Below are positions 4,623 through 18,110 of a stretch of DNA of 64,000 nt, piece by piece (within the stretch, counting starts at the first letter, position 1; the number at the start of each line of letters is the position of its first letter). A model generated the notes under the pieces. It saw only the letters and a program-made list of their open reading frames with translations. It had not been told where the DNA came from and ran no database searches. Location: the NCBI GenBank assembly GCA_022448425.1, contig JAKVCY010000216.1, forward strand, positions 1-64,000. Reading direction: 5' to 3'. Made by a program: the position numbers and the translations under genes. This DNA is from Thalassotalea sp. Lineage in GTDB: Bacteria; Pseudomonadota; Gammaproteobacteria; Enterobacterales; Alteromonadaceae.

Positions 4623-6578
4623 ATGGCGCTATGGGGTGGCCGGTTTAAAGAAAAAGCCAGCGTGCAGTTTAAGAAGTTCAACGATTCATTACCGGTGGAT
4701 TACCGCATGGCGGTGCAAGATATTGTTGGTTCAATTGCTTGGGCTGGCGCGCTTAACCAAGTGGGTGTGTTAAGTGATGCTGAAGTAGCAGAGCTTGAAA
4801 GTGCCTTATTGGAATTGAAAGCCTCTGTTGAAGAAAACCCAAAACAGATTTTGCTATCTGACGCGGAAGATATTCACAGTTGGGTTGAGTTGCAACTGAT
4901 CGAAAAAACCGGTGATTTGGGCAAAAAACTTCACACAGGCCGCAGTCGCAACGACCAAGTAGCAACGGATCTTAAGCTTTGGTGTAAAGAAACGGGCGGT
5001 GAGTTATTGTTCGCGCCAGTGAATTTGCAGCAAGCCATGATGAACCTTGCAGAGCGAGAGAGTAATACCGTGTTGCCGGGTTACACTCACTTGCAACGTG
5101 CACAGCCAGTCACATTTGGTCATTGGTGTCTTGCCTACGTTGAAATGTTTAACCGTGATATCGGACGCTTAAAAGACTCGCTGTATCGTCTTGATGTATC
5201 ACCGTTAGGCTCAGGCGCCCTTGCGGGGACAGCATATCCAATCGATCGCGAATTGTTGGCACATAATTTAGGTTTTAGAACCGCAACTATTAATAGTCTT
5301 GATGCCGTATCAGACCGTGACCATGTGATTGAACTGTTATCGACGGCCAGCATCAGCATGATGCACTTATCACGTTTTGCAGAAGACCTTATTTTCTACA
5401 ACTCGGGTGAAGCTGGCTTTGTTGAAATGAGCGATTTAGTAAGCTCTGGCTCTAGCTTGATGCCACAGAAGAAAAATCCAGATGCGTGCGAGCTTATTCG
5501 TGGTAAAGCGGGGCGTGTATTTGGTTCGCTTACTGGTATGTTAACGACCATGAAAGCGCTGGCGCTTGCCTACAACAAAGACATGCAGGAAGACAAAGAA
5601 GGTTTATTCGATGCTTTAGATACATGGCTTGAATGTATGGAGATGGCAACGCTTGTCGCAGACGGCCTGAAAGTAAATGCTGCGCGCACATTAGCCGCGG
5701 CTCAACAAGGTTATGCTAATGCAACAGAGCTTGCAGACTACCTTGTGAGCAAAGATATCCCGTTCAGGGAAGCCCATCATATTGTGGGTGAAGTAGTTCT
5801 TGCCGCGATTGATAAAGGTGTGCCGCTCGAAGATCTCACGCTTACGCAACTGCAAGAGTACAGTGAAAAAATTGAGCAAGATGTTTATCAGCATTTGTCT
5901 ATTGAATCGACGTTAGATAAACGTGAAGCACTCGGAGGAACTTCTCGTGCACAGGTGCAAAAAACCATCGATAGCTTTCATCTAAGTAAACAAGGTCAAA
6001 CCGGTAAAACTGAAATTTTGAATGAGCAAGTTGTTGGTGCACCTGGTAAGCAGCAAACTAAGCTGGCACTTAAACAGGTTAAGCAGCGCCTTAATGCACA
6101 GAAAGCGGCGGCCATGTCGGTTAGACGCGCGAGAATGTCTGATGTCGATAAAATCTATCAGCAAGTATCTTACTGGTCTGGTGTGGGTGAAATTTTACCG
6201 CGTAGCCGCGACAACATTATTCACGATATTCAAAACTTCGTGGTTGCTGAGATAGACGGACAAGTTGTTGGTTGTGCTTCGCTTTACATTTATGAGCCTG
6301 GTCTCGCTGAAATTCGCTCTGTGGTGATCGACAAAGCCTTCCATCACCAGGGACAAGGTAAAGCACTAACGCAGTACTTACTTGAATTTGCACACCAAAT
6401 GGAGTTAGAGACCATTATCGTTCTAACTTACATCCCTGATTACTTCACGAAGCTTGGTTTTGGCGTTATTGAAAAATCGTCGCTAGCGGAAAATATTATC
6501 GAAGATAGCGAGCCAAGCCCAGATAAGAACCCAGAGGATGAAGTTGCAATGGCGTATCAGGTTAATCGTGCGAAGTAG
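4623..6578 (+). CDS. argH: Argininosuccinate lyase fused to a GNAT acetyltransferase, ArgH(A)
   Basis: Residues 1 to about 460 are argininosuccinate lyase, which releases arginine and fumarate. The fumarase/lyase signature [11 protein letters not shown] is at 276-286, and [14 protein letters not shown] marks the substrate site. A linker of about 35 residues leads to a GNAT domain at about 498-651, with the acetyl-CoA loop HHQGQGKAL at about 574-582. The length of 651 is far above the usual 460. This layout matches the ArgH(A) fusion described in Moritella and related marine gammaproteobacteria, where the tail acts as an N-acetylglutamate synthase. Here a complete argA follows, so the tail may be a second synthase or may have drifted. 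RBS AGGAG is upstream of 4623. Confidence 0.93.
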
Positions 6579-6610
6579 TGCAGGCTACTTCGCTCAAATG
6601 CTCATTTTTT
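6570..6610 (+). terminator. Hairpin with T-run between argH and argA
   Basis: A nine-base perfect stem (GCGAAGTAG at 6570-6578 with CTACTTCGC at 6585-6593) starts at the argH stop codon. A run of six T begins about 12 bases after the stem. The distance is long for a strong intrinsic terminator, so this is probably a weak terminator or an mRNA-processing hairpin that would lower argA expression relative to argH. Confidence 0.35.
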
Positions 6611-6642
6611 AAATACACAGGAAAGTAGGAAATCGCCGTCAC

Positions 6643-7956
6643 ATGGTTCAAGATTACGTAAAATGGTTTCGTAATGCCGCCCCTTACATCAACGCTCATC
6701 GCGGTAAAACCGTGGTGATGATGTTTGGCGGTGAAGCCGTTCAACACCCTAATTTTGCCAATATCATCCACGATATCGCATTACTGAGAAGCTTAGGTGT
6801 AAAGCTTGTAATTGTGCATGGCGCCCGCCCACAAATCGCTGAACGCGCTAATTTACTGGGTGTTGAGCAGCAATTTGAACAGCACTTACGTATTACCGAT
6901 CCAAGAACCTTAATGGCGGTTAAAGACGCTACCGGCTCTTTGCGTGTGCACATTGAAGCACTGCTGACCATGGGACTTGTGAACTCTCCGATGCACGGCT
7001 CTCAAATTCGTGTAAGTACTGGTAACTTTGTGATTGCTCGTCCCATTGGTGTTAAGGATGGCATCGATTATCAAAACACTGGCTTAGTGCGCCGTATTGA
7101 CACTGGTGCGATTAATCAGCAACTTGATAATGGTTCAATTGTGCTGCTATCTCCTGTCGGCTATTCAACTACCGGTGAAGTGTTTAATTTGGCACTTGAA
7201 GATGTCGCGACCCAAACGGCAATTTCATTAGGTGCGGACAAATTAGTGACCTTTACTGAAGATGATGGCTTGGTTGACGGAGATGGCAAACTGATTCGTA
7301 GTTGCAGTGTCCGCCGAGTTCGTGAGCTATTAGATGCGTATGGTGGTGAAGAAACAGACCATGTTCGACAGCTATTGCTGAGAGCCATCATTCAAAGTGG
7401 TGAAAACGGCGTTGAACGTTGCCACTGTGTGTCATATCAAAGTGATACTGCGTTATTGCAAGAACTGTTTACGCGTGATGGCGCAGGTACTTTGATTGCG
7501 AAAGATCACAAAGAGCATATAGCTACAGCCTCTATTGATGATGTCGGCGGTATTTTAGAGCTTATTCAGCCGCTTGAAGAGGAAGGCGTGCTCGTGCGTC
7601 GTTCACGTAAGTTACTGGAAACAGAAATCGATCGTTTCATCGTGCTTAAAAAAGAAGACATCATTATCGCGTGTGCTGCTTTGTATCCTTATGCAGAATC
7701 AAAAGCGGGAGAATTAGCTTGCGTGGTTATTCATCCGGATTATCGCAAGGGCAATCGCGGTGAACGACTTATCAGTGCGGTAGAAGCTTTCGCTAAACGT
7801 CAGAAACTGGATAAGTTGTTTGTGTTGACTACGGTGAGTTATCACTGGTTCCTTGAACAAGGTTTTGTAGAAACCAGTGTCGCTTCATTGCCAGAAGAAA
7901 AGCAGGCGCTCTATAACTATCAACGTAAGTCTAAAGTGTTGGTAAAAGCCATCTAA
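6643..7956 (+). CDS. argA: N-acetylglutamate synthase (amino-acid N-acetyltransferase)
   Basis: ArgA acetylates glutamate with acetyl-CoA, committing it to arginine. Residues 1 to about 290 form the inactive amino-acid-kinase-like domain that senses arginine (VVMMFGGEAVQHPNF at the start, LVIVHGARPQI next). Residues about 295-437 form the GNAT catalytic domain with acetyl-CoA loop VVIHPDYRKGNRGERL. The length of 437 matches the classical E. coli enzyme (443). It lies 64 bases after argH in the same direction. Its presence next to an ArgH that already has a GNAT tail is unusual and is treated as a finding. Confidence 0.93.
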   Translation: MVQDYVKWFRNAAPYINAHRGKTVVMMFGGEAVQHPNFANIIHDIALLRSLGVKLVIVHGARPQIAERANLLGVEQQFEQHLRITDPRTLMAVKDATGSLRVHIEALLTMGLVNSPMHGSQIRVSTGNFVIARPIGVKDGIDYQNTGLVRRIDTGAINQQLDNGSIVLLSPVGYSTTGEVFNLALEDVATQTAISLGADKLVTFTEDDGLVDGDGKLIRSCSVRRVRELLDAYGGEETDHVRQLLLRAIIQSGENGVERCHCVSYQSDTALLQELFTRDGAGTLIAKDHKEHIATASIDDVGGILELIQPLEEEGVLVRRSRKLLETEIDRFIVLKKEDIIIACAALYPYAESKAGELACVVIHPDYRKGNRGERLISAVEAFAKRQKLDKLFVLTTVSYHWFLEQGFVETSVASLPEEKQALYNYQRKSKVLVKAI

Positions 7957-7993
7957 ACGGAACATTTTTATAGAATACTGCAGTTCATAATTT

Positions 7994-8022
7994 CATGTAG
8001 CGCCAATGATAAGCGCTACATG
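7994..8022. terminator. Hairpin between convergent argA and GH13 gene
   Basis: CATGTAGCGC (7994-8003) and GCGCTACATG (8013-8022) form a perfect ten-base stem with a nine-base loop. There is no clear T-run on either side. Its place between two converging genes suggests a shared termination or mRNA-protecting structure. Confidence 0.45.
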
Positions 8023-8056
8023 TCATCAACAAAGGTAAAGGGCGGATCAGCAAAAC

Positions 8057-9805
8057 CTAACGAATATTGCTGATCCATACGGTCTGGTATGGCTGTAACT
8101 CAATAGCTTGAGTCAGGTCGGTAATTTCTTCGCCTGAAATCAGATCGAACCAAGACTCTGTTATGATTAGGTTTAATTCGCTGATGGGTAATTCAACGCT
8201 CTGGTCTGTGATGTTAGACACACAGAAAATACTCTGGCGCCTATCCATGCTCTGTCGCCAAAAACCAAACAAGCTAAGCCCCAAGTGCAAGGTAAACTGA
8301 GTTGCATTTGGATGAAACGCCTTTTGTGCGGTACGTTTGTCGATGAGCGATAACATTTGGCTGAGCACTTTTGCATGCGGATTAGTTTCATCGGCCAGCA
8401 TAATTTCTAGCGATTCATAGTCCCAGCGATGTCGATTTATCGAACGATTGTGATGGGTGTTCTTTAATTTCTCGTAATCATTGCGCGTGCCAAGCAAGCT
8501 ATGAATGTAAATACCTGGAATACCTTCAAGTGCGAGCATAATGGCATGGGCACAAATGAATCGTTGCATCCCCCATTTATCTGGGCCATTGACAGTACCT
8601 TGAAGCGCATCGAACAGCGATATATTCATCTCATATGCTTTCTGCTCACCAGTTTCACTAGTTCGCCAAGAAATAGCACCGCCAAAAGACTTCATGGTGG
8701 CAATCAACTCACCAATTTCTTGGTCTGTTAACAAGCCCTCAGCTGGTCGAAGTCCAATGCCGTCGTGGGAAGCAATGAAGTTGAAATATGTCGTGCCATC
8801 TTGTGCTGGCGGCATACTCATCAACCAGCGCTTTAGGTATAAGCAATTACCTGTCACCAAGGTGTTAATGAGTAAAGGTGGTAGCGAGAAGTTATAGATA
8901 CAATGCGCTTCGTTTGCGTTACCAAAATAGGTAAGGTTTTGGGTATTGGGAATATTCGTTTCTGTGATAATGACAGCATCGTTTTGTGCGTGTTCAATCA
9001 AGGTGCGAAGTAATCTAACAACCTCATGAGTTTGAGGCAGGTTAATCGACTTTGTGCCAACAATTTTCCACAAGAAGGCAACAGCATCCATACGGAAAAT
9101 ACGTACCCCGTTATCAAGGTAATGGCGAAGAATTTTAACAAACTGTCTAAGTACTTCAGGGTTACGGAAGTCTAAATCAACTTGGTCGTGACTAAAGGTA
9201 CACCAAACGTGTTTTTCGCCATTGGCTGTATCCGTTTTCCTTAACAGTGGTGAAGTGCGTGGTCGAGTAACTTGGGATAAGTCATCACTAGGATCGGCAG
9301 TAAAGAAATAGTCATGCCCCTTTCCTTCACCCTTGACGAAATTTTCAAACCACAGGCTCCGGCTAGAGCAATGGTTAATGACTAAGTCTGCCATAAGGCG
9401 CTTATCTGCAGCGATATCGACGATATCTTGCCAGTCACCTAAAGATTCGTTCACGGATGAGTAATCGATAACAGAGAAGCCATCATCAGAGCTGTATGGA
9501 AAAAATGGCAAAATATGCACACTGTTTACGTGATCCTGCAAATACTGATTGGCAAAATGCTGTAGCGTTTTAAGCGGACGCTCTCCCTCTTTAAGCAAGC
9601 TATCGCCATAGGTGACCATTATCACGTCTTGTTCTGACCAATGGTTGCTAAACGGTGGCGGCGGTGTGTTCTGCTCACTAATACGCATTTCAGAAATTAA
9701 ACGCTCAGCAAGTGCTTGATGCGTCATATCAATAGCAACATCTTGATAAATCATCGCCAATTGCTGTGTTACCTTCTGGGTAAGTGCCGTTAAGCAGTCA
9801 GACAT
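8057..9805 (-). CDS. GH13 subfamily 18 phosphorylase, probably glucosylglycerate phosphorylase
   Basis: This 582-residue cytoplasmic protein is of the sucrose-phosphorylase type. The four GH13 regions read DLVINHCSS (140-148), FRMDAVAF (237-244, nucleophile D240), TETN (281-284, acid/base E282) and ASHDGIG (345-351, D348). There is no signal peptide. Family GH13_18 includes sucrose, glucosylglycerol and glucosylglycerate phosphorylases. The neighbours make glucosyl-3-phosphoglycerate, dephosphorylate it and phosphorylate free glycerate, so phosphorolysis of glucosylglycerate to glucose 1-phosphate and glycerate is the best fit. Sucrose phosphorylase is the main alternative. It is the last gene of the operon, 90 bases after the glycosyltransferase, with RBS GGAAA before the ATG at 9805. 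Confidence 0.75.
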
Positions 9806-9895
9806 TTCGTTTCCTTTTAGTTATTTGTTTAGGCTACCTATAGGAGCAATGGTATATAGCTTAAATCACGCATAAATTATGTTAGTGCGGTGCTG

Positions 9896-11122
9896 TTAGG
9901 CACCGCTAAATTCTTTGTTATCTTCTTCTACTGCTTGTTTTAGCTCTTCCAGGATATTCGGCTCAGCGCTGATCACGCGGTTCCATGTTGGAATAAACGG
10001 TGTTTCCATCGGATTTTCTAGGAAGGTTTGGCCTGCATTCATGATGTTTTTTGCAAACATCTCTACCGCCGCTTCTTCGTTGTGGATATCAAGCGAAAGA
10101 CCATTCATTAGAGCATCGTGACGATAGGTTTCAACATAGTCGAGGGCAATGCGGAAATAGGTCGCCTTGATAGAGCGGAATGTTTCAGTGCTAAACGTAT
10201 GGCCTTGCGTGGCGAGTTTGCGGAAGAATGCCTTAGTAATATCAATCGACATTTTTGACAAACCAGCTTGTGCGTTATCTAGAGACAGATCTTGGTGTTT
10301 ATGGTCGTATACGTCAGCAATATCTACCTGACAAATACGGTTTACCGCGTAATTGCGATGCATCTCACTGAGTACGCCAATCTCTAAGCCCCAATCGCTT
10401 GGGATACGTAAATCGTTAAGCACGTCGCGACGGAATGAGAATTCTCCTGCTAGCGGATAGCGGAAGCAGTCCATGTAATCTAGATATTCGTTGGTACCAA
10501 CAACACGTTTGAGTGCACGTATCAGTGGAGTTACTAGCAGACGCGATACGCGGCCGTTAATCTTGCCATCCGCAACACGCGCATAGAAGCCTTTTGAGAA
10601 TTCGTAGTTAAATTGTGGGTGCGCAACAGGGTAGAGTAGTCTTGCTAACAGACCTTTTTCGTAAGTGAGAATGTCGCAATCGTGCAACGCAACTGATTCG
10701 GCTTTGTTCGATGCAAGAATGTACCCCATGCAATACCAAACATTTCGGCCTTTGCCGAGCTCTGTTGGTGCTAACCCTAATTTTTGAAGCTTTTCATCGA
10801 TAGCTTTTAAGCGAGGACCATCATTCCATAAGACTCTATGGTGTTGAGGTAGCTTGTCGAAAAATTTTAGCGCATAGCGATATTGCGCTTCATCAGCCCT
10901 GTCTAGTCCAATAACAACTTCCGTCAGAAATGGAACTTCAGCAATTTTGTCAATAATGTTCCCGAGGGCTGGACCTTCAAGCTCAGAAAAAAGTGATGGA
11001 AGCAATAACCCTAAAGGACGTTTCTTGTTGAATTCGAGCAGCTCATTCTCCATGTCTTGGTATGAACGTTGACGTAAGTTGTGAAGCGTTGTGACGCTGC
11101 CGTTTTGGTAAAAATCAGCCAT
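9896..11122 (-). CDS. Glucosyl-3-phosphoglycerate synthase-like glycosyltransferase (GT81-like)
   Basis: The protein (408 residues from the ATG at 11122, MADFYQNGSV) is a GT-A-fold transferase with a D-C-D metal motif in ALHDCDILTYEKG and an N-terminal nucleotide-binding region LLLPSLFSELEGPALG. It should transfer glucose from a nucleotide sugar to 3-phosphoglycerate. I chose this start because it has a GGAG site about 11 bases upstream and overlaps the phosphatase stop by eight bases; a longer frame to 11296 would run deep into the phosphatase gene. Identification as GpgS rests on fold, length and partners. Mannosyl-3-phosphoglycerate synthase is the alternative. Confidence 0.7.
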   Translation of the reverse strand: MADFYQNGSVTTLHNLRQRSYQDMENELLEFNKKRPLGLLLPSLFSELEGPALGNIIDKIAEVPFLTEVVIGLDRADEAQYRYALKFFDKLPQHHRVLWNDGPRLKAIDEKLQKLGLAPTELGKGRNVWYCMGYILASNKAESVALHDCDILTYEKGLLARLLYPVAHPQFNYEFSKGFYARVADGKINGRVSRLLVTPLIRALKRVVGTNEYLDYMDCFRYPLAGEFSFRRDVLNDLRIPSDWGLEIGVLSEMHRNYAVNRICQVDIADVYDHKHQDLSLDNAQAGLSKMSIDITKAFFRKLATQGHTFSTETFRSIKATYFRIALDYVETYRHDALMNGLSLDIHNEEAAVEMFAKNIMNAGQTFLENPMETPFIPTWNRVISAEPNILEELKQAVEEDNKEFSGA

Positions 11123-11984
11123 GAGAATACTCTCCATTGGGTTTTTTAAGAATGCTGCTTGAAGATAATTCAAGAATTTCAGTAAGTGCTTCTGTCCAAC
11201 CAACCGGACCAAACCCGAGAGTTTGATAGATGAAAGCGACTTTGCTCTCATCAATGGATGGATAGCTATGTGTTGGGGATTTGATTTGAACTGCAATGTC
11301 TGCTGCTTCTAACATTGCACTATCGTTGCCACTATCGCCTAAAGCAATAGCCGTTATTGTAGGTAATTTGAACTGATGCTGGTATTCACCAGCGAGCCAA
11401 TTAAGCGCTTTACCTTTATCGCAATCATCACATATGTGGATAAATCGACCACCCTGTAATACATTTGCACCAAGGGATTTTGCAGCTTCAATAAAACTAA
11501 GCTTTTGAGCATTATCGCCATGCCAAAGCACAGGTTCGCCGTATTGTCTCTGATTGGCTTCTTTTGCAGCTGCTAACGATAAACCGGTAACTTCAGCTAT
11601 GCGCTCGTAACTCATCTGAGAAAAACTCTCGAATAGTTCACCAAAATCTGAACACAGCTGTTCTATAATTTTTATATAGATGCTACGAGGCTGACTGAAA
11701 GTTTTTAGCCAGAATTCTCCCTGAATAGTAGTATCTTCAGGTTGTTTTGGAAAAAAGCGCTTCGGAATGTAAATTGCCGCACCATTTTCAACGATAAAAG
11801 GTGAAGAAAGCTCGAGCGACTCATACAAGTTTGTCACTTCTTGTACAGTTTTGCTTGTGGTAGCGATTACCGGAATATCGGCCTGCTTTAGCATTGATAA
11901 CGTCGGTAGCGCGGCAGAAAAACTATAGGTGTAATGGTCTAGTAAAGTGCCATCTAAATCGGTAAATACTATTGGGAATTGCAC
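11115..11984 (-). CDS. Glucosyl/mannosyl-3-phosphoglycerate phosphatase, HAD-IIB
   Basis: This 289-residue HAD phosphatase has motif I FTDLDGTLLD (nucleophile D9, acid D11) and motif IV ALGDSGNDSAMLEAAD. It has the size of the mannosyl-3-phosphoglycerate phosphatase (MPGP/YedP) family. It should remove the phosphate from the product of the next gene to release the neutral-to-anionic osmolyte glucosylglycerate. The start is a GTG at 11984 with GGAG about ten bases upstream, and it lies one base after the glycerate kinase stop. It overlaps the synthase start by eight bases, so the three genes are tightly coupled. Confidence 0.8.
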   Translation of the reverse strand: MQFPIVFTDLDGTLLDHYTYSFSAALPTLSMLKQADIPVIATTSKTVQEVTNLYESLELSSPFIVENGAAIYIPKRFFPKQPEDTTIQGEFWLKTFSQPRSIYIKIIEQLCSDFGELFESFSQMSYERIAEVTGLSLAAAKEANQRQYGEPVLWHGDNAQKLSFIEAAKSLGANVLQGGRFIHICDDCDKGKALNWLAGEYQHQFKLPTITAIALGDSGNDSAMLEAADIAVQIKSPTHSYPSIDESKVAFIYQTLGFGPVGWTEALTEILELSSSSILKKPNGEYSHG

Positions 11985-11985
11985 G

Positions 11986-12951
11986 TTAAATAGCTCCTTC
12001 CAAAGCGGTTATTTGATGCTGTTCGTCGAGAGAGAAAACTAAATCACATTCAGATGGCAGAGTTGTTAAACCGTGCTCGGTTAGTCGTTGAAAATAGCTA
12101 ATAAACGACATCACTTGTTCATGTGTCATTACTTTATTTTCAATGGGATTCGAAGGTTTACTTGCTGTCTTGCTAATCGCTGTACTAATGTCGGTTTCAG
12201 ATTGAAGTGCCGCGACTTTTTCAGCGAGTTTTTGTTCTTGTTGCCAGCGCCAATGTTTTACACAATCAAATGAAGGGGCTTTTAACATCAACCACTTATC
12301 CATAAAGGCGTACAATGGTTGATAATGCTGCTGAATTTGCTGGTTAACGTAACGTCTCCATATTGCGTCTTGGTCTTGTATGCGTTCTAACAAATTAACA
12401 GGGTTCTCAAGTGAGTCTTCCTGCTCAGCAGCAACACCCCAACACCAACCTTCGATGATGACCACGTCAACTTGAGCTGGCGATAGCAACCATTCTACTT
12501 TCGGAAATGGATTGTCTTGGGACTTATCGAATCGCGGCAAAGCGATACGTTGTCCGTTTTTAAGGCACTTTAGTACGGTATGAAGTAAATCGATATCATG
12601 GGTACCAGGTACGCCTCGAGTGGCAAGCAATGGATGAACATCTTTAGCAAGGCTTCGTCTTGCATCTTGCGATAAATAAAAATCGTCTAGTGATAAATTG
12701 ACTACATTAAGTTGAGGTTTAGTGCTGAGATAATGATTGAGTAGAGCGGCCAAAGTTGACTTGCCAGAGCCTTGGCAGCCATTGATGCCCAGAAATACGG
12801 GGGTAGTTTCGGATTTGTCGCTTTGTTCAGTTTTCCCTTTGCGCGCGACTACCAAAGCTTCCAGTTGCTGAGCAACGGGTAAAAACCACTTGCGTGCGCT
12901 GCTCGCAAAGGTCGCTGGTAGCTTGTGTTCGGTAATGAACTCGCTAAGCAT
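11986..12951 (-). CDS. D-glycerate 3-kinase-like P-loop kinase
   Basis: With the ATG at 12951 (MLSEFITEHKLP) the protein has 321 residues. That start has a strong GGAGGGG site just upstream, whereas an in-frame codon at 13008 lacks one. The Walker A loop GCQGSGKST is at residues 58-66, and VVIIEGWCWGV is the Walker-B-like strand typical of the plant/yeast-type glycerate kinase (COG4240) family. It would turn glycerate released by the GH13 phosphorylase into 3-phosphoglycerate, which is the acceptor for the synthase. It is the first gene of the operon. Confidence 0.75.
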   Translation of the reverse strand: MLSEFITEHKLPATFASSARKWFLPVAQQLEALVVARKGKTEQSDKSETTPVFLGINGCQGSGKSTLAALLNHYLSTKPQLNVVNLSLDDFYLSQDARRSLAKDVHPLLATRGVPGTHDIDLLHTVLKCLKNGQRIALPRFDKSQDNPFPKVEWLLSPAQVDVVIIEGWCWGVAAEQEDSLENPVNLLERIQDQDAIWRRYVNQQIQQHYQPLYAFMDKWLMLKAPSFDCVKHWRWQQEQKLAEKVAALQSETDISTAISKTASKPSNPIENKVMTHEQVMSFISYFQRLTEHGLTTLPSECDLVFSLDEQHQITALEGAI

Positions 12952-13106
12952 GTAACCCCTCCAATGAATGACTTTTGATAAATTACAGGCAAACAAGGTT
13001 TGTGCCAATCAATGAGTTATCTGTTAAAGGTAATTAATACAAGAGGTTAAGCTGTTTTAACGGAAGGAGGTTATGGGCTGGTATGAGCATAAATAAGTTT
13101 AATGCA

Positions 13107-13139
13107 CAATCATGGTGCGTGGGTGTTGCACCATGATTG
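13107..13139 (-). terminator. Hairpin downstream of mrcA
   Basis: A perfect 12-base stem, CAATCATGGTGC (13107-13118) with GCACCATGATTG (13128-13139), encloses a nine-base loop. It lies 28 bases past the mrcA stop in the direction of transcription. The following bases on the minus strand are only moderately T-rich. Confidence 0.5.
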
Positions 13140-13166
13140 AACATATAACAATCGGTATCGGGAAAA

Positions 13167-15767
13167 TTAAAAGATTTCTTCTTCTACTTCACCGTCTAGG
13201 ATTACACTACTTTCATCGCTTATAACCGACTCTGTAGGTGCTGTACCTAGCTGAAAATATTCAAAAATGCTGGTCTTGTCTGTTTTAGAAGTTAGCTTGC
13301 CACTTGCTTTATCTATGCGCACAGAAACAATATCTTCAGGCGGCTCAAAAGGCTCAACAGGTAGCTCTTCTAGCGCCGCTTTCATGAAACTAATCCATGC
13401 AGGTTGAGCTGATCTTGCACCAAATTCTTTCCCGGTAATCTGATTTTTTCCTAGATTCCCGTTGTAGGTTGTTTGCCCAAGGTTACGAGTATGGTCATCG
13501 AAACCTATCCAAGACGTTGCTACCATTCTGCGACTGTAGCCAGAGAACCAAGCATCTTTCGCTTCATTTGTGGTTCCAGTTTTACCTGCGATATCACGTC
13601 GTTTTAATGTTCTTCCTCTAAAACCAGTACCTTGCCAACCTGGCGATATGCTCCAGTCAGCTCCCCAGATGGCACTATTTAGCGCTTGCGTAATTAAAAA
13701 TGCATTTTGTGCACTGATAGCTCGCTCAGCAACATTGATGTCTTTATATGCTTCTGTTGGCAGGCTGTCAGAGCCTTGTGGCGCGGATTGCTGTTCCCCG
13801 TCGATACTTGCCGTTAGAGATTGTGATACCTGCTCTTGAACAGCCTGCCTAAACTCATTGCATGGAAGTTCACAGGCATACTTCGGATTTGCTCTAAACA
13901 CTTCATTACCAAATGAATCCTCGATTCGCTCGATGAAATAAGGCTCAACGAGATATCCTCCATTGGCAAAGGTTGCAAAACCAGTGACAACTTCAAGAGG
14001 GGTGAGTGACGCTGACCCCAGTGCCAATGATTCATTGTCAGGTAACTCATGTGGCACAAAACCAAATTGCGCTAAGTGGTCAATCATTTTACCTAAGCCA
14101 ACTGCACGTAGTAACCTAACCGCAATCACGTTTTTTGATTGAGCTAGCGCGAGGCGAACGCGCATAGGACCATCATAGGTCGGTGGAGAGTTCTTTGGCC
14201 GCCAGATAAAGCCGGATTTTTTATCCCATTGGTTAATGGGGGCGTCGTTTACCAGTGATGCGAGTGTAAAGTCGTTCTCAAGTGCCGCTGAGTATATAAA
14301 TGGTTTGATGTTCGAGCCCACTTGTCGCTTTGCTTGTGTGACACGGTTAAATTGACTTTGTTTAAAGCTAAAGCCACCAACAACTGCTTGAATCGCGCCG
14401 TTGTCAGGATTCATTGCCACAAGTGCGCTACTCGCCCTTGGAAGCTGACTGAGTTGATAACTATCTCGTAGGTTAGTAGTCCAAATAACATCGCCAATTT
14501 TTAAGATCTCAGCAGCAATCTTCGGCGGGACACCTTGTTTTTGATCACTCAAATATTCTCTTGCCCAAGACATGCCATCCCATAGTATTGTTACCGAGTC
14601 ACCATTTTTTAGTGATACTTGCGCGGATTGTTCCAATACATTTGTAACTACTGCAGGCTGCAAGTGGTGATAGGTAGAGATCGCTTTAAGCGCATTGTGA
14701 ATTTCTTCTAACGTCAATGTCGATACTAAATTCTGCTCTGTACCCTCAACGGTCTCTGGGCGAAGCTCTTTAATAGGACCGCGATAACCATGCCTTTGAT
14801 CGTAGGCCATTAAATTATCAAGTACAGATTGCTGAGCGGCGGCTTGTAATCTAGAAGGCGTGGTCAAAAAAACCTTGTAGCCGCCTGTGTAGGCATCTTC
14901 GGCGCCAAAGCGATCAAGCATTTCTTGGTGCGCCATTTCTGCTATATAAGGTGCGTTGAGTTCTATCTCTGCGCCATGTTTTTTCGCAGTAATAGGAGCA
15001 GCCTTTGCAGTTTGGTATTCTTCTTCGGTGATGTAACCACTTACTAACATGCGTTGAAGTACGACAGTCCTGCGGTTCTTAGCACGTTCAGGTCGGCTGA
15101 TTGGGTTTAGCGTAGATGGCGCTTTGGGTATGCCAGCTAAAACGGCAATCTGTGCAAGCGTTAGATCTTTGACTTCCTTACCATAGTAGACCTGAGCAGC
15201 TGCACCGTAGCCATAAGCTCTGTGGCCGAGTGGAATCTTATTGAGATATAGCGCCAGAATTTGATCTTTCGTAAGTAAACTTTCGATATGAAAAGAAAGA
15301 AAAACTTCTCGAATTTTACGGGTGTAGGTGACTTCGTTGGTTAAGAAGAAATTTCGAGCAACCTGCATAGTGATGGTACTTGCACCACCTTTATTTTGAC
15401 CTATTAATTTACCAAATACCGCGCGGCCAACGCCAATTGGGTCGACACCAAAGTGAGAATAAAATCTATCGTCTTCAGTTGCGAGGATCGCGTCGATCAG
15501 TTGCTGTGGAAATTCTTCAAGTGCAAGCGGTATACGTTTTTTCTCACCAAACTGAGAAACTAATTTACCGTCTTGCGTGAAAATCTGCATCGGTGTTTGC
15601 CACTTCAACTCTTTCAACGACTCAACGTTTGGTAGACCGCTGCGTATTGAAAGGTATAAAACGAATAGGGAGGCAAGTCCTAAAAAGCTTAGTGCTACCG
15701 CGATTTTCGCTAAATTTTTAATAGAAAACACAGAAAATGCTCGATTTATGTAAAAAATTTGTATCAT
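13167..15767 (-). CDS. mrcA: Penicillin-binding protein 1A (bifunctional peptidoglycan synthase)
   Basis: This inner-membrane enzyme polymerises glycan strands and cross-links peptides in the periplasm. Residues about 19-41 form the single membrane anchor. The GT51 domain follows with EDDRFYSHFG (catalytic E98) and STITMQVARN. The transpeptidase domain has S485-N-I-K488 (acylation serine), an SKN triad around 550 and K729-T-G. The length of 866 is normal for gammaproteobacterial PBP1A. It is divergent from pilM with 92 bases between starts, the standard arrangement in this group. Confidence 0.95.
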   Translation of the reverse strand: MIQIFYINRAFSVFSIKNLAKIAVALSFLGLASLFVLYLSIRSGLPNVESLKELKWQTPMQIFTQDGKLVSQFGEKKRIPLALEEFPQQLIDAILATEDDRFYSHFGVDPIGVGRAVFGKLIGQNKGGASTITMQVARNFFLTNEVTYTRKIREVFLSFHIESLLTKDQILALYLNKIPLGHRAYGYGAAAQVYYGKEVKDLTLAQIAVLAGIPKAPSTLNPISRPERAKNRRTVVLQRMLVSGYITEEEYQTAKAAPITAKKHGAEIELNAPYIAEMAHQEMLDRFGAEDAYTGGYKVFLTTPSRLQAAAQQSVLDNLMAYDQRHGYRGPIKELRPETVEGTEQNLVSTLTLEEIHNALKAISTYHHLQPAVVTNVLEQSAQVSLKNGDSVTILWDGMSWAREYLSDQKQGVPPKIAAEILKIGDVIWTTNLRDSYQLSQLPRASSALVAMNPDNGAIQAVVGGFSFKQSQFNRVTQAKRQVGSNIKPFIYSAALENDFTLASLVNDAPINQWDKKSGFIWRPKNSPPTYDGPMRVRLALAQSKNVIAVRLLRAVGLGKMIDHLAQFGFVPHELPDNESLALGSASLTPLEVVTGFATFANGGYLVEPYFIERIEDSFGNEVFRANPKYACELPCNEFRQAVQEQVSQSLTASIDGEQQSAPQGSDSLPTEAYKDINVAERAISAQNAFLITQALNSAIWGADWSISPGWQGTGFRGRTLKRRDIAGKTGTTNEAKDAWFSGYSRRMVATSWIGFDDHTRNLGQTTYNGNLGKNQITGKEFGARSAQPAWISFMKAALEELPVEPFEPPEDIVSVRIDKASGKLTSKTDKTSIFEYFQLGTAPTESVISDESSVILDGEVEEEIF

Positions 15768-15859
15768 AAGACTAGTATATCGTCTAAAACCATGTAATAA
15801 ATGTGTTTATGCGTATATTATATCTAAATAATTAGAACTATAAGATTTAGTAGGAAGTT

Positions 15860-16939
15860 ATGCTAAGCAATTTATGGAAAAAGAAAGCATCTATGATGGT
15901 GGGGATCGATATAGGATCTCACGCTGTCAAGGCTGTTTTGTTTAGTCAGGGGGACTACGGCTATATACTAGAAGACTTCGCTATCGAACCCATGCCTCGA
16001 GGCGCCATAGTTGACCGAGAAATTCAAGATATCGAAGCTGTTGGTAATGTCATCGCCAAAGTCCGCAAAAAAATTGCCAGCTCAGTGAAGCTCGCCGCTG
16101 TCGCAGTTTCGGGTCAAACGGTAATTACAAAAGTTATCTACATGGATGTCTCGCTGTCAGATGAAGAACTAGCGGGTCAAATTGAAGTAGAAGCTGACAG
16201 CCTCATTCCTTACCCTCTTGATGAAGTTAGCTTGGATTTTGAAAAGCTTGCAGTTAACGAATCGGATCCTAGCAAAATTAATGTCTTGTTAAGTGCTGCA
16301 CGCACTGAATCGGTTGAAGCTCGCGTTGCTGCTTTGGAGGCTGGTGGTTTCGCTACTAAAGTCGTTGATGTTGAGTCGTACGCCATTAGCAGGGCATTCG
16401 ACTTATGCTTGGCTCAATTACCTGATGATGCTAGTAAAAAAATGGTGGCAATGGTCGATCTCGGCGCGAACATGACACTGTTTTCAGCTACAAATGAAGG
16501 TGAACATGTCTACAGTCGTGACCAAATCTTTGGTGGCGAACAATATACACGCTCAATTGTTTCTTACTACAACCAGTCGTTCGAAGAAGCTGAATCGGCA
16601 AAAGTATCAGGCAACCTTCCGCCGAATTACCGCTTTGAAGTATTGGCACCATTCCAAACGATATTGGTCCAACAAATCCGTCGCGCCATTCAAATGTTCT
16701 TAACATCTAGTGGTCACGAAAAGGTTGATTATTTAGTGATATCTGGTGGTACTGCTCTAGTCGAAGGTGTTCAGGAGTTGCTGACGGAAGAACTAGGTAT
16801 ATATACCGTGGTTGCGAACCCATTTTCTGGTGTAGAAATCAGCAGCGATATAGACAATAGCGAAGTAGAAAGAGTCGCACCACAGTTGATGGTGGCAGCT
16901 GGCTTAGCGTTAAGGAGTTTTACGCCGTGGCAAATATAA
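15860..16939 (+). CDS. pilM: Type IV pilus assembly protein PilM
   Basis: PilM is an actin-like cytoplasmic protein that binds the N-terminus of PilN and helps build the inner-membrane alignment complex of type IV pili. The sequence shows the ATPase-fold phosphate loops MVGIDIGSHAVKAV near the start, MVDLGANMTLF around 195-205 and a late VISGGTALVEGV loop. The length of 359 residues is normal. An AGGAAG site precedes the ATG. It overlaps pilN by 13 bases and heads pilMNOPQ. Confidence 0.95.
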   Translation: MLSNLWKKKASMMVGIDIGSHAVKAVLFSQGDYGYILEDFAIEPMPRGAIVDREIQDIEAVGNVIAKVRKKIASSVKLAAVAVSGQTVITKVIYMDVSLSDEELAGQIEVEADSLIPYPLDEVSLDFEKLAVNESDPSKINVLLSAARTESVEARVAALEAGGFATKVVDVESYAISRAFDLCLAQLPDDASKKMVAMVDLGANMTLFSATNEGEHVYSRDQIFGGEQYTRSIVSYYNQSFEEAESAKVSGNLPPNYRFEVLAPFQTILVQQIRRAIQMFLTSSGHEKVDYLVISGGTALVEGVQELLTEELGIYTVVANPFSGVEISSDIDNSEVERVAPQLMVAAGLALRSFTPWQI

Positions 16940-17505
16940 ACCTTTTGCCTTGGCGCGAGGAAGCGCAAAAGGCCAGACAAAAAGAATTTGTTAGTATACT
17001 AGCCTTCGTTGCGCTTTTTATGTTTCTAGTTGTATTTTTGGTTGCTAGCTTCTACCAAGCAAAAGTTGATGGTCAAAATAGTCGTAATCAATTTTTACGT
17101 AATGAAATTCAAATATTAGATGTCCGTATTGCTGAAATTAAAACGCTAGATGAGAAGAAAAAAGCACTTCAAAAACGTATTAATGTCATTGAACAACTAC
17201 AACGTAGTCGAAATGTTGGTACGCAAGTCCTTGATGAGATAGCTAAAATTATACCCAATGGTATTTATTTAACCAAGCTTGAGAAAAAGGGCAACATGAT
17301 CTACTTGACGGGTAAAAGTGAGTCAAACAACCACCTTGCCAATATGATCCGTGAAATTGAGCTATCAGATTTGTTCACCGATGCTACACCGGAATCAATT
17401 ATTACTGATGAAGAGGCGACAAAGCTATTGAGTGATTTCAAAATGCGAGTCAAAATCAAAGGTTTAGTCGATGACTTTGATGGCTCTGTGAAGGGAGGCA
17501 GATAA
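16927..17505 (+). CDS. pilN: Type IV pilus assembly protein PilN
   Basis: PilN is a bitopic inner-membrane protein whose cytoplasmic N-terminus (ANINLLPWREE, the PilM-binding motif) is present right after the start. A membrane helix follows at about 24-44, then a coiled-coil (about 50-95) and a small periplasmic domain. The start is a GTG at 16927 inside the end of pilM, with AAGGAG nine to ten bases upstream, so expression is coupled to pilM. The length of 192 residues is normal. Confidence 0.93.
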   Translation: MANINLLPWREEAQKARQKEFVSILAFVALFMFLVVFLVASFYQAKVDGQNSRNQFLRNEIQILDVRIAEIKTLDEKKKALQKRINVIEQLQRSRNVGTQVLDEIAKIIPNGIYLTKLEKKGNMIYLTGKSESNNHLANMIREIELSDLFTDATPESIITDEEATKLLSDFKMRVKIKGLVDDFDGSVKGGR

Positions 17506-18110
17506 TGGCTTTTGATTTTGCAAAGTTTAGTGAGCAATTCGATAACCTTGAATTAGACAACATCGGTGAATGGCCGATTGCAGCAAAAGTCGTATTGACA
17601 ATATTTACTGCTATAGTTGTTTCTGCTTTTTCTTATATGTTACTCGTCAGCGACAAATTAGATACGCTAGATAGAATAAGAGCTGAAGAGCAAACCCTGA
17701 AACAAGAATACGCTGCAAAGTATCATGTTGCTGCAAACCTAGAACTGTTCCAACAACAAATGGTTGAAGCTGAAGATATTTTTGCTAATCAGTTACGTAG
17801 TCTTCCTGAAAGTCACGAAACCCCCGGTTTACTTGATGATATAACGTTCGTTGGTACGACTAGCGGCCTAGATTTCGTAAAGCTGAATTGGCAGCCAGAG
17901 ATTGTTAAAGAAATTTATATTGAACTACCAATAGACATTGAAGTTATTGGCGCATATCACGAATTTGGCGGCTTTGTGAGCAAAATAGCTGGGCTTCCGA
18001 GAATTGTGACTTTACATGATTTTACGATTGATATTGCTCAGGTAAGCACTGAAACACTGAACCTGAAATTGCAAGCCAAAACGTACCGTTATCAGGAGGC
18101 TAGTCAATAA
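17505..18110 (+). CDS. pilO: Type IV pilus assembly protein PilO
   Basis: PilO pairs with PilN in the periplasm as part of the alignment complex. It has a short cytoplasmic part, a membrane helix at about 26-48, a coiled-coil and a ferredoxin-like periplasmic domain of about 100 residues ending at 201. The segment LPESHETPGLLDDI is typical of the family. The start codon overlaps the pilN stop by one base (TAATG), and the stop overlaps pilP in the same way. Confidence 0.93.
   Translation: MAFDFAKFSEQFDNLELDNIGEWPIAAKVVLTIFTAIVVSAFSYMLLVSDKLDTLDRIRAEEQTLKQEYAAKYHVAANLELFQQQMVEAEDIFANQLRSLPESHETPGLLDDITFVGTTSGLDFVKLNWQPEIVKEIYIELPIDIEVIGAYHEFGGFVSKIAGLPRIVTLHDFTIDIAQVSTETLNLKLQAKTYRYQEASQ

Follow-up and report, generated by a model that had tools for sequence, protein, structure and literature searches.

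A predicted operon for making and recycling glucosylglycerate in a Thalassotalea genome

Introduction

Glucosylglycerate phosphorylase (GGaP; EC 2.4.1.352) is a GH13_18 enzyme whose specificity was derived, according to a 2020 review, from the genomic organisation of its gene with genes for glycerate kinase, GpgS or GpgP (PMC7178133). The same source describes two sequence marks of the enzyme, a (T/S)ETN motif and a glutamate in loop A in place of the glutamine of most other clades, and suggests that GGaP might regulate solute levels, its exact metabolic function being, in that account, without experimental confirmation (PMC7178133). A 2024 review, where it deals with this neighbourhood, credits earlier remarks on it to papers of 2011 and 2017 (PMC11009771). 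Glucosylglycerate is described as being among the major solutes of one Prochlorococcus strain, and the glucosylglycerate metabolism operon of Prochlorococcus NATL2A, published in 2024, is described as recycling it to glucose 1-phosphate and 3-phosphoglycerate (PMC11631117); the mycobacterial glucosylglycerate hydrolase converts it to glycerate and glucose (PMC11009771). Here we describe a locus of four genes, for a glycerate kinase, a phosphatase, a GT81 synthase and a GH13_18 phosphorylase, in a 64,000-nucleotide stretch of a Thalassotalea sp. genome (assembly GCA_022448425.1, contig JAKVCY010000216.1, positions 1 to 64,000; hereafter the window), which very probably serves both to make and to recycle glucosylglycerate.

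The closed cycle is not new, and the locus adds one more example of an arrangement already in print (PMC7178133, PMC11631117). As in the published GGaP neighbourhood, both sequence marks are present and a regulation of solute level can be proposed, and the glycerate kinase, GpgS and GpgP genes all adjoin that of GGaP; here, however, the four genes stand together, in a Thalassotalea-like gammaproteobacterium, a lineage not named where that review treats GGaP (PMC7178133). The NATL2A operon likewise combines synthesis genes with recycling to glucose 1-phosphate and 3-phosphoglycerate, but is described with a putative transporter gene, whereas none adjoins the window operon (PMC11631117). Mycobacterial GpgS, itself of GT81, has the same synthase fold, although the sink described for the mycobacterial system is a hydrolase, in place of a phosphorylase yielding glucose 1-phosphate plus a kinase (PMC11009771). 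E. coli YcjM, annotated as glucosylglycerate phosphorylase, falls on the same side of the phosphorylase tree and has the same marks as the window protein, but its 17-kb stretch is without annotated synthase, phosphatase or glycerate kinase, and holds ABC transporter and kojibiose phosphorylase genes. For GGaP and its neighbours, the 2020 review cites Franceus et al. 2017.

Results

Family assignments of the four enzymes

Four intact, co-directional open reading frames occupy the minus strand from position 12951 down to 8057, in the order kinase, phosphatase, GT81, GH13 (Table 1), as placed by a preliminary description of this DNA. Family, motif and tree evidence, the fold of the GT81 protein, a conserved neighbourhood and co-occurrence across genomes together make it highly probable that they form an operon for glucosylglycerate synthesis and recycling, the specificity of each enzyme being a prediction from these comparisons. 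All four family assignments of the preliminary description survived the sequence tests that follow.

The GH13 protein carries both GGaP marks, T281-E-T-N284 and Glu392. The column of Glu392, as we read the alignment, would be that of loop A, and the aligned sucrose and glucosylglycerol phosphorylases have glutamine in it. Both marks were invariant in 17/17 aligned proteins, including E. coli YcjM, and were present in 80/80 named loci (defined below), 79 of them recognised by script and the 80th (L106) by eye, as KAYEMNV. In a tree of 24 rows, 20 GGaP-like proteins, YcjM among them, were split from four of sucrose-phosphorylase type with 100/100 support, the M. silvanus and S. thermophila enzymes having been left out. 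In the outgroup of four, the Pseudoalteromonas piscicida row is unannotated. Against TIGR03852 the protein scored 202 bits, under the cut-off of 334 for sucrose phosphorylase. It is extremely improbable that a phosphorylase of sucrose, sucrose 6-phosphate or glucosylglycerol lies here beside the synthesis pair by chance: among the 60 of 116 solved-structure matches listed, the best have labels such as sucrose or glucosylglycerol phosphorylase and none that of glucosylglycerate phosphorylase, but both marks are present where those enzymes differ, the tree split separates them, and identity to YcjM is 39% (over 574 aa) against 25.6–30.3% to the annotated plasmid sucrose phosphorylases listed. 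The two marks and the grouping with YcjM thus uphold the assignment as GGaP rather than sucrose phosphorylase, with phosphorolysis as the predicted activity.

For the GT81 protein the best profile was the glucosyl-3-phosphoglycerate synthase model NF040724 (GpgS_Meth; 365.7 bits). Its PDB sequence matches were GpgS and MpgS enzymes, the match to mycobacterial GpgS being weak, and residues K124, D148-C-D150, R191, E227 and H274 are conserved and align with the mycobacterial enzyme. A fold search with the GT81 structure model returned 7pdo first (E 6.6e-11) and the GT81 MpgS 3o3p third, so that the assignment to GT81, for which this structure-based check was run, held by sequence and by fold. 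The likely substrates are nucleoside-diphosphate-glucose (NDP-glucose) as donor and 3-phosphoglycerate as acceptor.

The phosphatase passed the cut-offs of two models, NF001218 (364.6 bits, cut-off 362) and TIGR01486 (215.1, cut-off 164.75), which bears out its description as MPGP-type; it matched the solved MPGP enzymes 1xvi, 3ztw and 1wzc in the PDB and has the HAD motifs DLDGTL, TSKT and GDSGND. Judged by its neighbours, and by the fact that no GT78 mannosyl-3-phosphoglycerate synthase (PF09488) was found in the genome (93% complete), it would act on glucosyl-3-phosphoglycerate. An operon making mannosylglycerate, or both solutes, would instead combine a GT81 enzyme using GDP-mannose with a true mannosyl-3-phosphoglycerate phosphatase; it would suit the phosphatase models, which are named for mannosyl-3-phosphoglycerate, and the presence of R. 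xylanophilus GT81 MpgS among the fold matches. This is quite unlikely, in view of the missing GT78 synthase, of the best profile of the GT81 protein, and of the near-strict co-occurrence and frequent adjacency of the synthase with a phosphorylase bearing glucosylglycerate marks.

The kinase matched the D-glycerate 3-kinases 6ckg (E 2e-17) and 7xpc (E 3.8e-16) in a phmmer search of the PDB. PF02595 and PF13660, two glycerate 2-kinase families, were not found in the same 93%-complete genome, so a 3-kinase would be the route for glycerate. The matches to solved 3-kinases and the lack of both families are consistent with the earlier proposal that the kinase returns the acceptor used in synthesis, 3-phosphoglycerate, and a 3-kinase of the GLYK type is predicted.

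Conservation of the gene cluster

Synthase and phosphorylase co-occur. Among 78 relatives (GGaP at E ≤ 1e-60), 38 have GT81, and GGaP was found in 37/38 of these and in 0/40 of the others. In a sample of 369 genomes of the class (GT81 at E ≤ 1e-40, GGaP at E ≤ 1e-90), 46 have GT81 and 49 GGaP, with 44 having both, two GT81 only and five GGaP only; GGaP is thus present in 44/46 GT81 carriers compared with 5/323 other genomes (Fisher p ~8e-49, kinship ignored). The position of the GGaP gene relative to GT81 varied across the 44: in 20 it follows GT81 in the same direction at a distance of no more than 2 kb, in 15 the two genes converge within that distance, and in nine they are more distant or on different contigs. 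A shared transcript is therefore not general, though adjacency is frequent. The convergent arrangement was seen mostly in genomes with lower-scoring phosphorylases. With its codirectional and convergent lineages, the class allows a natural comparison of the ways in which synthesis and breakdown are separated.

Closer neighbourhoods were examined in 80 named loci, an uneven sample comprising the best 80 of 426 stretches encoding relatives, chosen by likeness to a second phosphorylase of the same assembly (described below). GT81 and GGaP genes were adjacent and on one strand in 80/80, the matched stretches being 6 to 404 bases apart. The phosphatase was present in 78/80, the remaining two loci lying at a contig end. 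A GLYK kinase was present in 55, missing despite room for it in 20, and missing without room in three. A replacement was sought near 15 of the 20 GLYK-less clusters by comparison with MOFRL and PfkB representatives and with proteins in hand, PF02595-type kinases not being included; a MOFRL kinase was found in 0/80 of the named synthesis loci. Given the 80/80 adjacency and the co-occurrence in the class, the grouping of these genes is more than chance.

These loci bear also on whether the phosphorylase and kinase mainly consume imported glucosylglycerate and not the cell's own. In E. coli, ABC transporter genes adjoin ycjM and its 17-kb stretch has no synthesis genes, and the second GGaP–GLYK pair of the present assembly adjoins a TonB receptor and a sodium symporter; the window pair, however, sits in a synthesis operon that no transporter gene adjoins, and in all 80 named loci the synthase gene adjoins that of the phosphorylase. 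A mainly import-fed role is accordingly unlikely.

Several observations weigh against an operon for making and recycling glucosylglycerate. The GT81 protein falls far below the NF040724 equivalog cut-off (365.7 vs 700 bits) and is therefore filed under GT81 rather than under that equivalog; its structure model is of moderate confidence (predicted local distance difference test, pLDDT, 73.6); and its fold matches include the R. xylanophilus GT81 enzyme named mannosyl-3-phosphoglycerate synthase (3o3p, 3f1y), so that family membership alone does not settle the donor sugar. The tree tool warned of long branches meeting at the GGaP/sucrose-phosphorylase split. A GGaP match is lacking in one GT81-carrying relative (G063) and in two such genomes of the class (G373 and G600), and 20/75 named loci with upstream room have no kinase in the cluster. 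The kinase is strong in 34/38 GT81-carrying relatives but also in 9/40 non-carriers; its presence alone therefore says little, and it was set aside as a marker of the pathway. The genome itself is fragmented (216 contigs) and 93% complete, which makes absences from it provisional.

Proposed pathway

In the favoured operon for making and recycling glucosylglycerate, the GT81 enzyme would join NDP-glucose to 3-phosphoglycerate, giving glucosyl-3-phosphoglycerate, from which the phosphatase would release glucosylglycerate, a compatible solute. Once the solute was no longer needed, GGaP would cleave it with phosphate to glucose 1-phosphate and glycerate, and GLYK would convert glycerate to 3-phosphoglycerate. 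The preliminary description saw in this a turnover cycle. The sequences give good support to a making and a recycling half in one locus, but the two need not run as a cycle: by our bookkeeping a full turn would cost UTP and ATP, giving UDP, ADP and pyrophosphate, so that both halves working together would waste energy, and use at different times seems the likelier course. Storage and retrieval would then be kept apart by control at the enzymes, after transcription, since genes on a shared transcript could not be controlled separately at that level.

On this evidence glucosylglycerate is predicted as a solute of many marine gammaproteobacteria. An operon with both halves would permit a simple genetic test of phosphorylase function in a relative such as Thalassotalea algicola.

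At two loci (L035, 6417-7334; L038, 7324-8166) the phosphorylase gene has a sugar-nucleotidyltransferase gene next to it; Pfam assigns both to NTP_transferase, and NCBIfam names that of L035 GalU. Its product could turn released glucose 1-phosphate back into UDP-glucose.

Transcription unit and its boundaries

The four genes were previously described as tightly spaced or overlapping, which is apt for the first two junctions (a gap of 1 nt and an overlap of 8 nt) and less so for the last, a gap of 90 nt. A single transcript of all four is predicted. Upstream, on the same strand, lies a gene for penicillin-binding protein 1A, and downstream a convergent gene for N-acetylglutamate synthase.

The operon has a stable hairpin on either side, as would be expected at the ends of a separate unit. 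The upstream one has z -4.51 for its 101-nt stretch (0/200 shuffles equally stable), with a 9-nt loop that lies outside the limits of the terminator scan; that downstream has z -2.99, also for a 101-nt stretch (1/200 shuffles equally stable). Both are absent from the terminator-scan list. Between positions 7900 and 13300 the scan gave seven terminator-like sites, against 4.8 in shuffles; the three on the minus strand all lie within coding regions, and none lies between operon genes. A sigma-70 promoter scan of the same region gave two sites, where shuffles averaged 10.7.

A 7-bp hairpin in the 90 nt gap was considered as an attenuator and dropped. It folds no better than shuffles (z -0.64), is terminator-like only on the plus strand, and takes the same form in only 2/12 folded loci, L001 (that of the window) and L002; different stems, or no stem, were seen in the remaining ten.

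Table 1. Features of the operon, its boundaries and related loci. Positions are those of the window unless another locus is named.
Feature	Position	Strand	Remarks
Predicted D-glycerate 3-kinase, GLYK-type, 321 aa	11986..12951	-	P-loop GCQGSGKS at residue 58; ATG preceded by GGAGGGG
MPGP-family HAD-IIB phosphatase, 289 aa, GTG start	11115..11984	-	NF001218, TIGR01486, PDB matches, HAD motifs
Predicted GT81 glucosyl-3-phosphoglycerate synthase, 408 aa	9896..11122	-	Start 8 nt inside phosphatase gene; NF040724, PDB sequence and fold
Predicted GH13_18 glucosylglycerate phosphorylase (GGaP), 582 aa	8057..9805	-	TETN at 281-284, loop-A Glu392, tree
Synthase–phosphorylase gap, 90 nt	9806..9895	-	7-bp hairpin at start, overlapping synthase stop codon
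Strong hairpin, 3' of penicillin-binding protein gene and 5' of operon	13097..13149	-	Possible boundary
Hairpin right after phosphorylase gene, between convergent genes	7983..8030	-	Possible boundary
Second GGaP–GLYK pair within scavenging-type locus	L032, contig C174 of the same assembly, 5062-18073		
Kinase–phosphatase fusion open frame	L045, 6287-8068		
Kinase–phosphatase fusion open frame	L048, 6531-8381		
Kinase–phosphatase fusion open frame	L065, 6944-8686		
Kinase–phosphatase fusion open frame	L139, 6917-8728		
Kinase–phosphatase fusion open frame	L164, 2979-4733		

Kinase–phosphatase fusions

In five of 67 loci with both genes on the same strand (L045, L072, L048, L065 and L139), a single open frame runs through GLYK and the phosphatase with no stop codon between them; L045 and L072 are the same contig, of genome G007, and L048 belongs to G047. 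A sixth fusion, L164 from Pseudoalteromonas sp. CuT4-3, is annotated only as a HAD-IIB hydrolase. In the five distinct fusions (L045, L048, L065, L139 and L164) the first half matches GLYK and the second half the phosphatase. Such frames would link a catabolic gene, that of the kinase, with a synthetic one, that of the phosphatase, and were counted in favour of an operon for making and recycling. Neither these fusions, nor the convergent arrangement, nor a second phosphorylase–kinase pair was met in the accessible portions of the open-access literature surveyed, in which no search was aimed at the fusions or the convergent arrangement.

A second phosphorylase–kinase pair

A further contig of the same assembly, C174, encodes a phosphorylase 68% identical to that of the window and bearing both GGaP marks, with a second GLYK beside it. 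Next to the pair are genes for a ROK-type regulator, a TonB receptor and a sodium symporter, and for a GH63-type protein that scored 328 bits against the glucosylglycerate hydrolase model, under a cut-off of 550; a gene of the GlcNAc-epimerase family is close by. Contamination (4.55% is reported for the assembly) and transfer are both possible explanations for the presence of C174. Its tetranucleotide mean correlation was 0.609, where ten references of 15-20 kb from the same assembly gave 0.589-0.725 and eight stretches from other genomes 0.543-0.704, two 8 kb contigs of the assembly (0.419 and 0.480) having been left out of the references and seven shorter fetched contigs not compared. When its DNA was matched to six genus mates, the long matches were to the phosphorylase gene and the rest short pieces, with no match in G003.

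GH63 genes like that of C174 were present in 18/295 genomes of the family (E ≤ 1e-60). Five of the 17 other GH63 surroundings were viewed, in which the receptor, symporter, GH63 gene and a ROK-family protein were found in 5/5, and an epimerase-family gene and a MOFRL-type kinase in 4/5 each; phosphorylase and GLYK were found in 0/5. GT81 is also carried by 16/17 of these other genomes, which belong to few genera, so the counts are not independent. The exception, G117, has the GH63 protein and symporter closest to those of C174.

Four loci (L145, L146, L147 and L148) have a TonB receptor, sodium symporter, MOFRL kinase, GH63, epimerase and ROK regulator, with a PfkB kinase in two. By gene content they are probably loci for uptake of mannosylglycerate or glucosylglycerate, and, at a guess, the epimerase and PfkB genes point to mannosylglycerate as one substrate of GH63 loci. 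A survey of open-access literature found nothing to the point on TonB-dependent mannosylglycerate utilization (a Halomonas draft genome being the match), on mannosylglycerate hydrolase–glucosylglycerate operons, on digeneaside in a narrowed search, or on glucosyl-3-phosphoglycerate together with glycerate kinase (a paper on maltokinase being the match).

Tentatively, and with more doubt than confidence, sugar-glycerate metabolism in these marine bacteria can be seen as composed of two interchangeable modules set apart by their kinase. One module may make and recycle the solute, its 3-kinase returning glycerate to the solute's own precursor. The other may scavenge, combining TonB receptor, sodium symporter, GH63 hydrolase, epimerase and ROK regulator and passing glycerate into glycolysis through a MOFRL-type kinase. 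The present assembly would hold the recycling operon and, on C174, a hybrid in which the recycling pair of phosphorylase and 3-kinase may have been inserted into a locus of the scavenging kind; kinase and synthesis phosphatase may, in some lineages, have become a single two-headed enzyme. The strong GLYK matches in 9/40 relatives without GT81 argue against using GLYK to recognise the recycling module. Were the modular arrangement real, the organism could both retain the glucosylglycerate it makes and collect what its neighbours make.

Other observations

A second MGH1-like glycoside hydrolase (GH) domain (248 bits) was found on contig C68 of the same assembly (6441-7844), within an open frame of 845 codons. 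In the window, positions 4623-6578 encode an argininosuccinate lyase fused to an acetyltransferase domain, which passes NF008964, and a full N-acetylglutamate synthase gene adjoins it.

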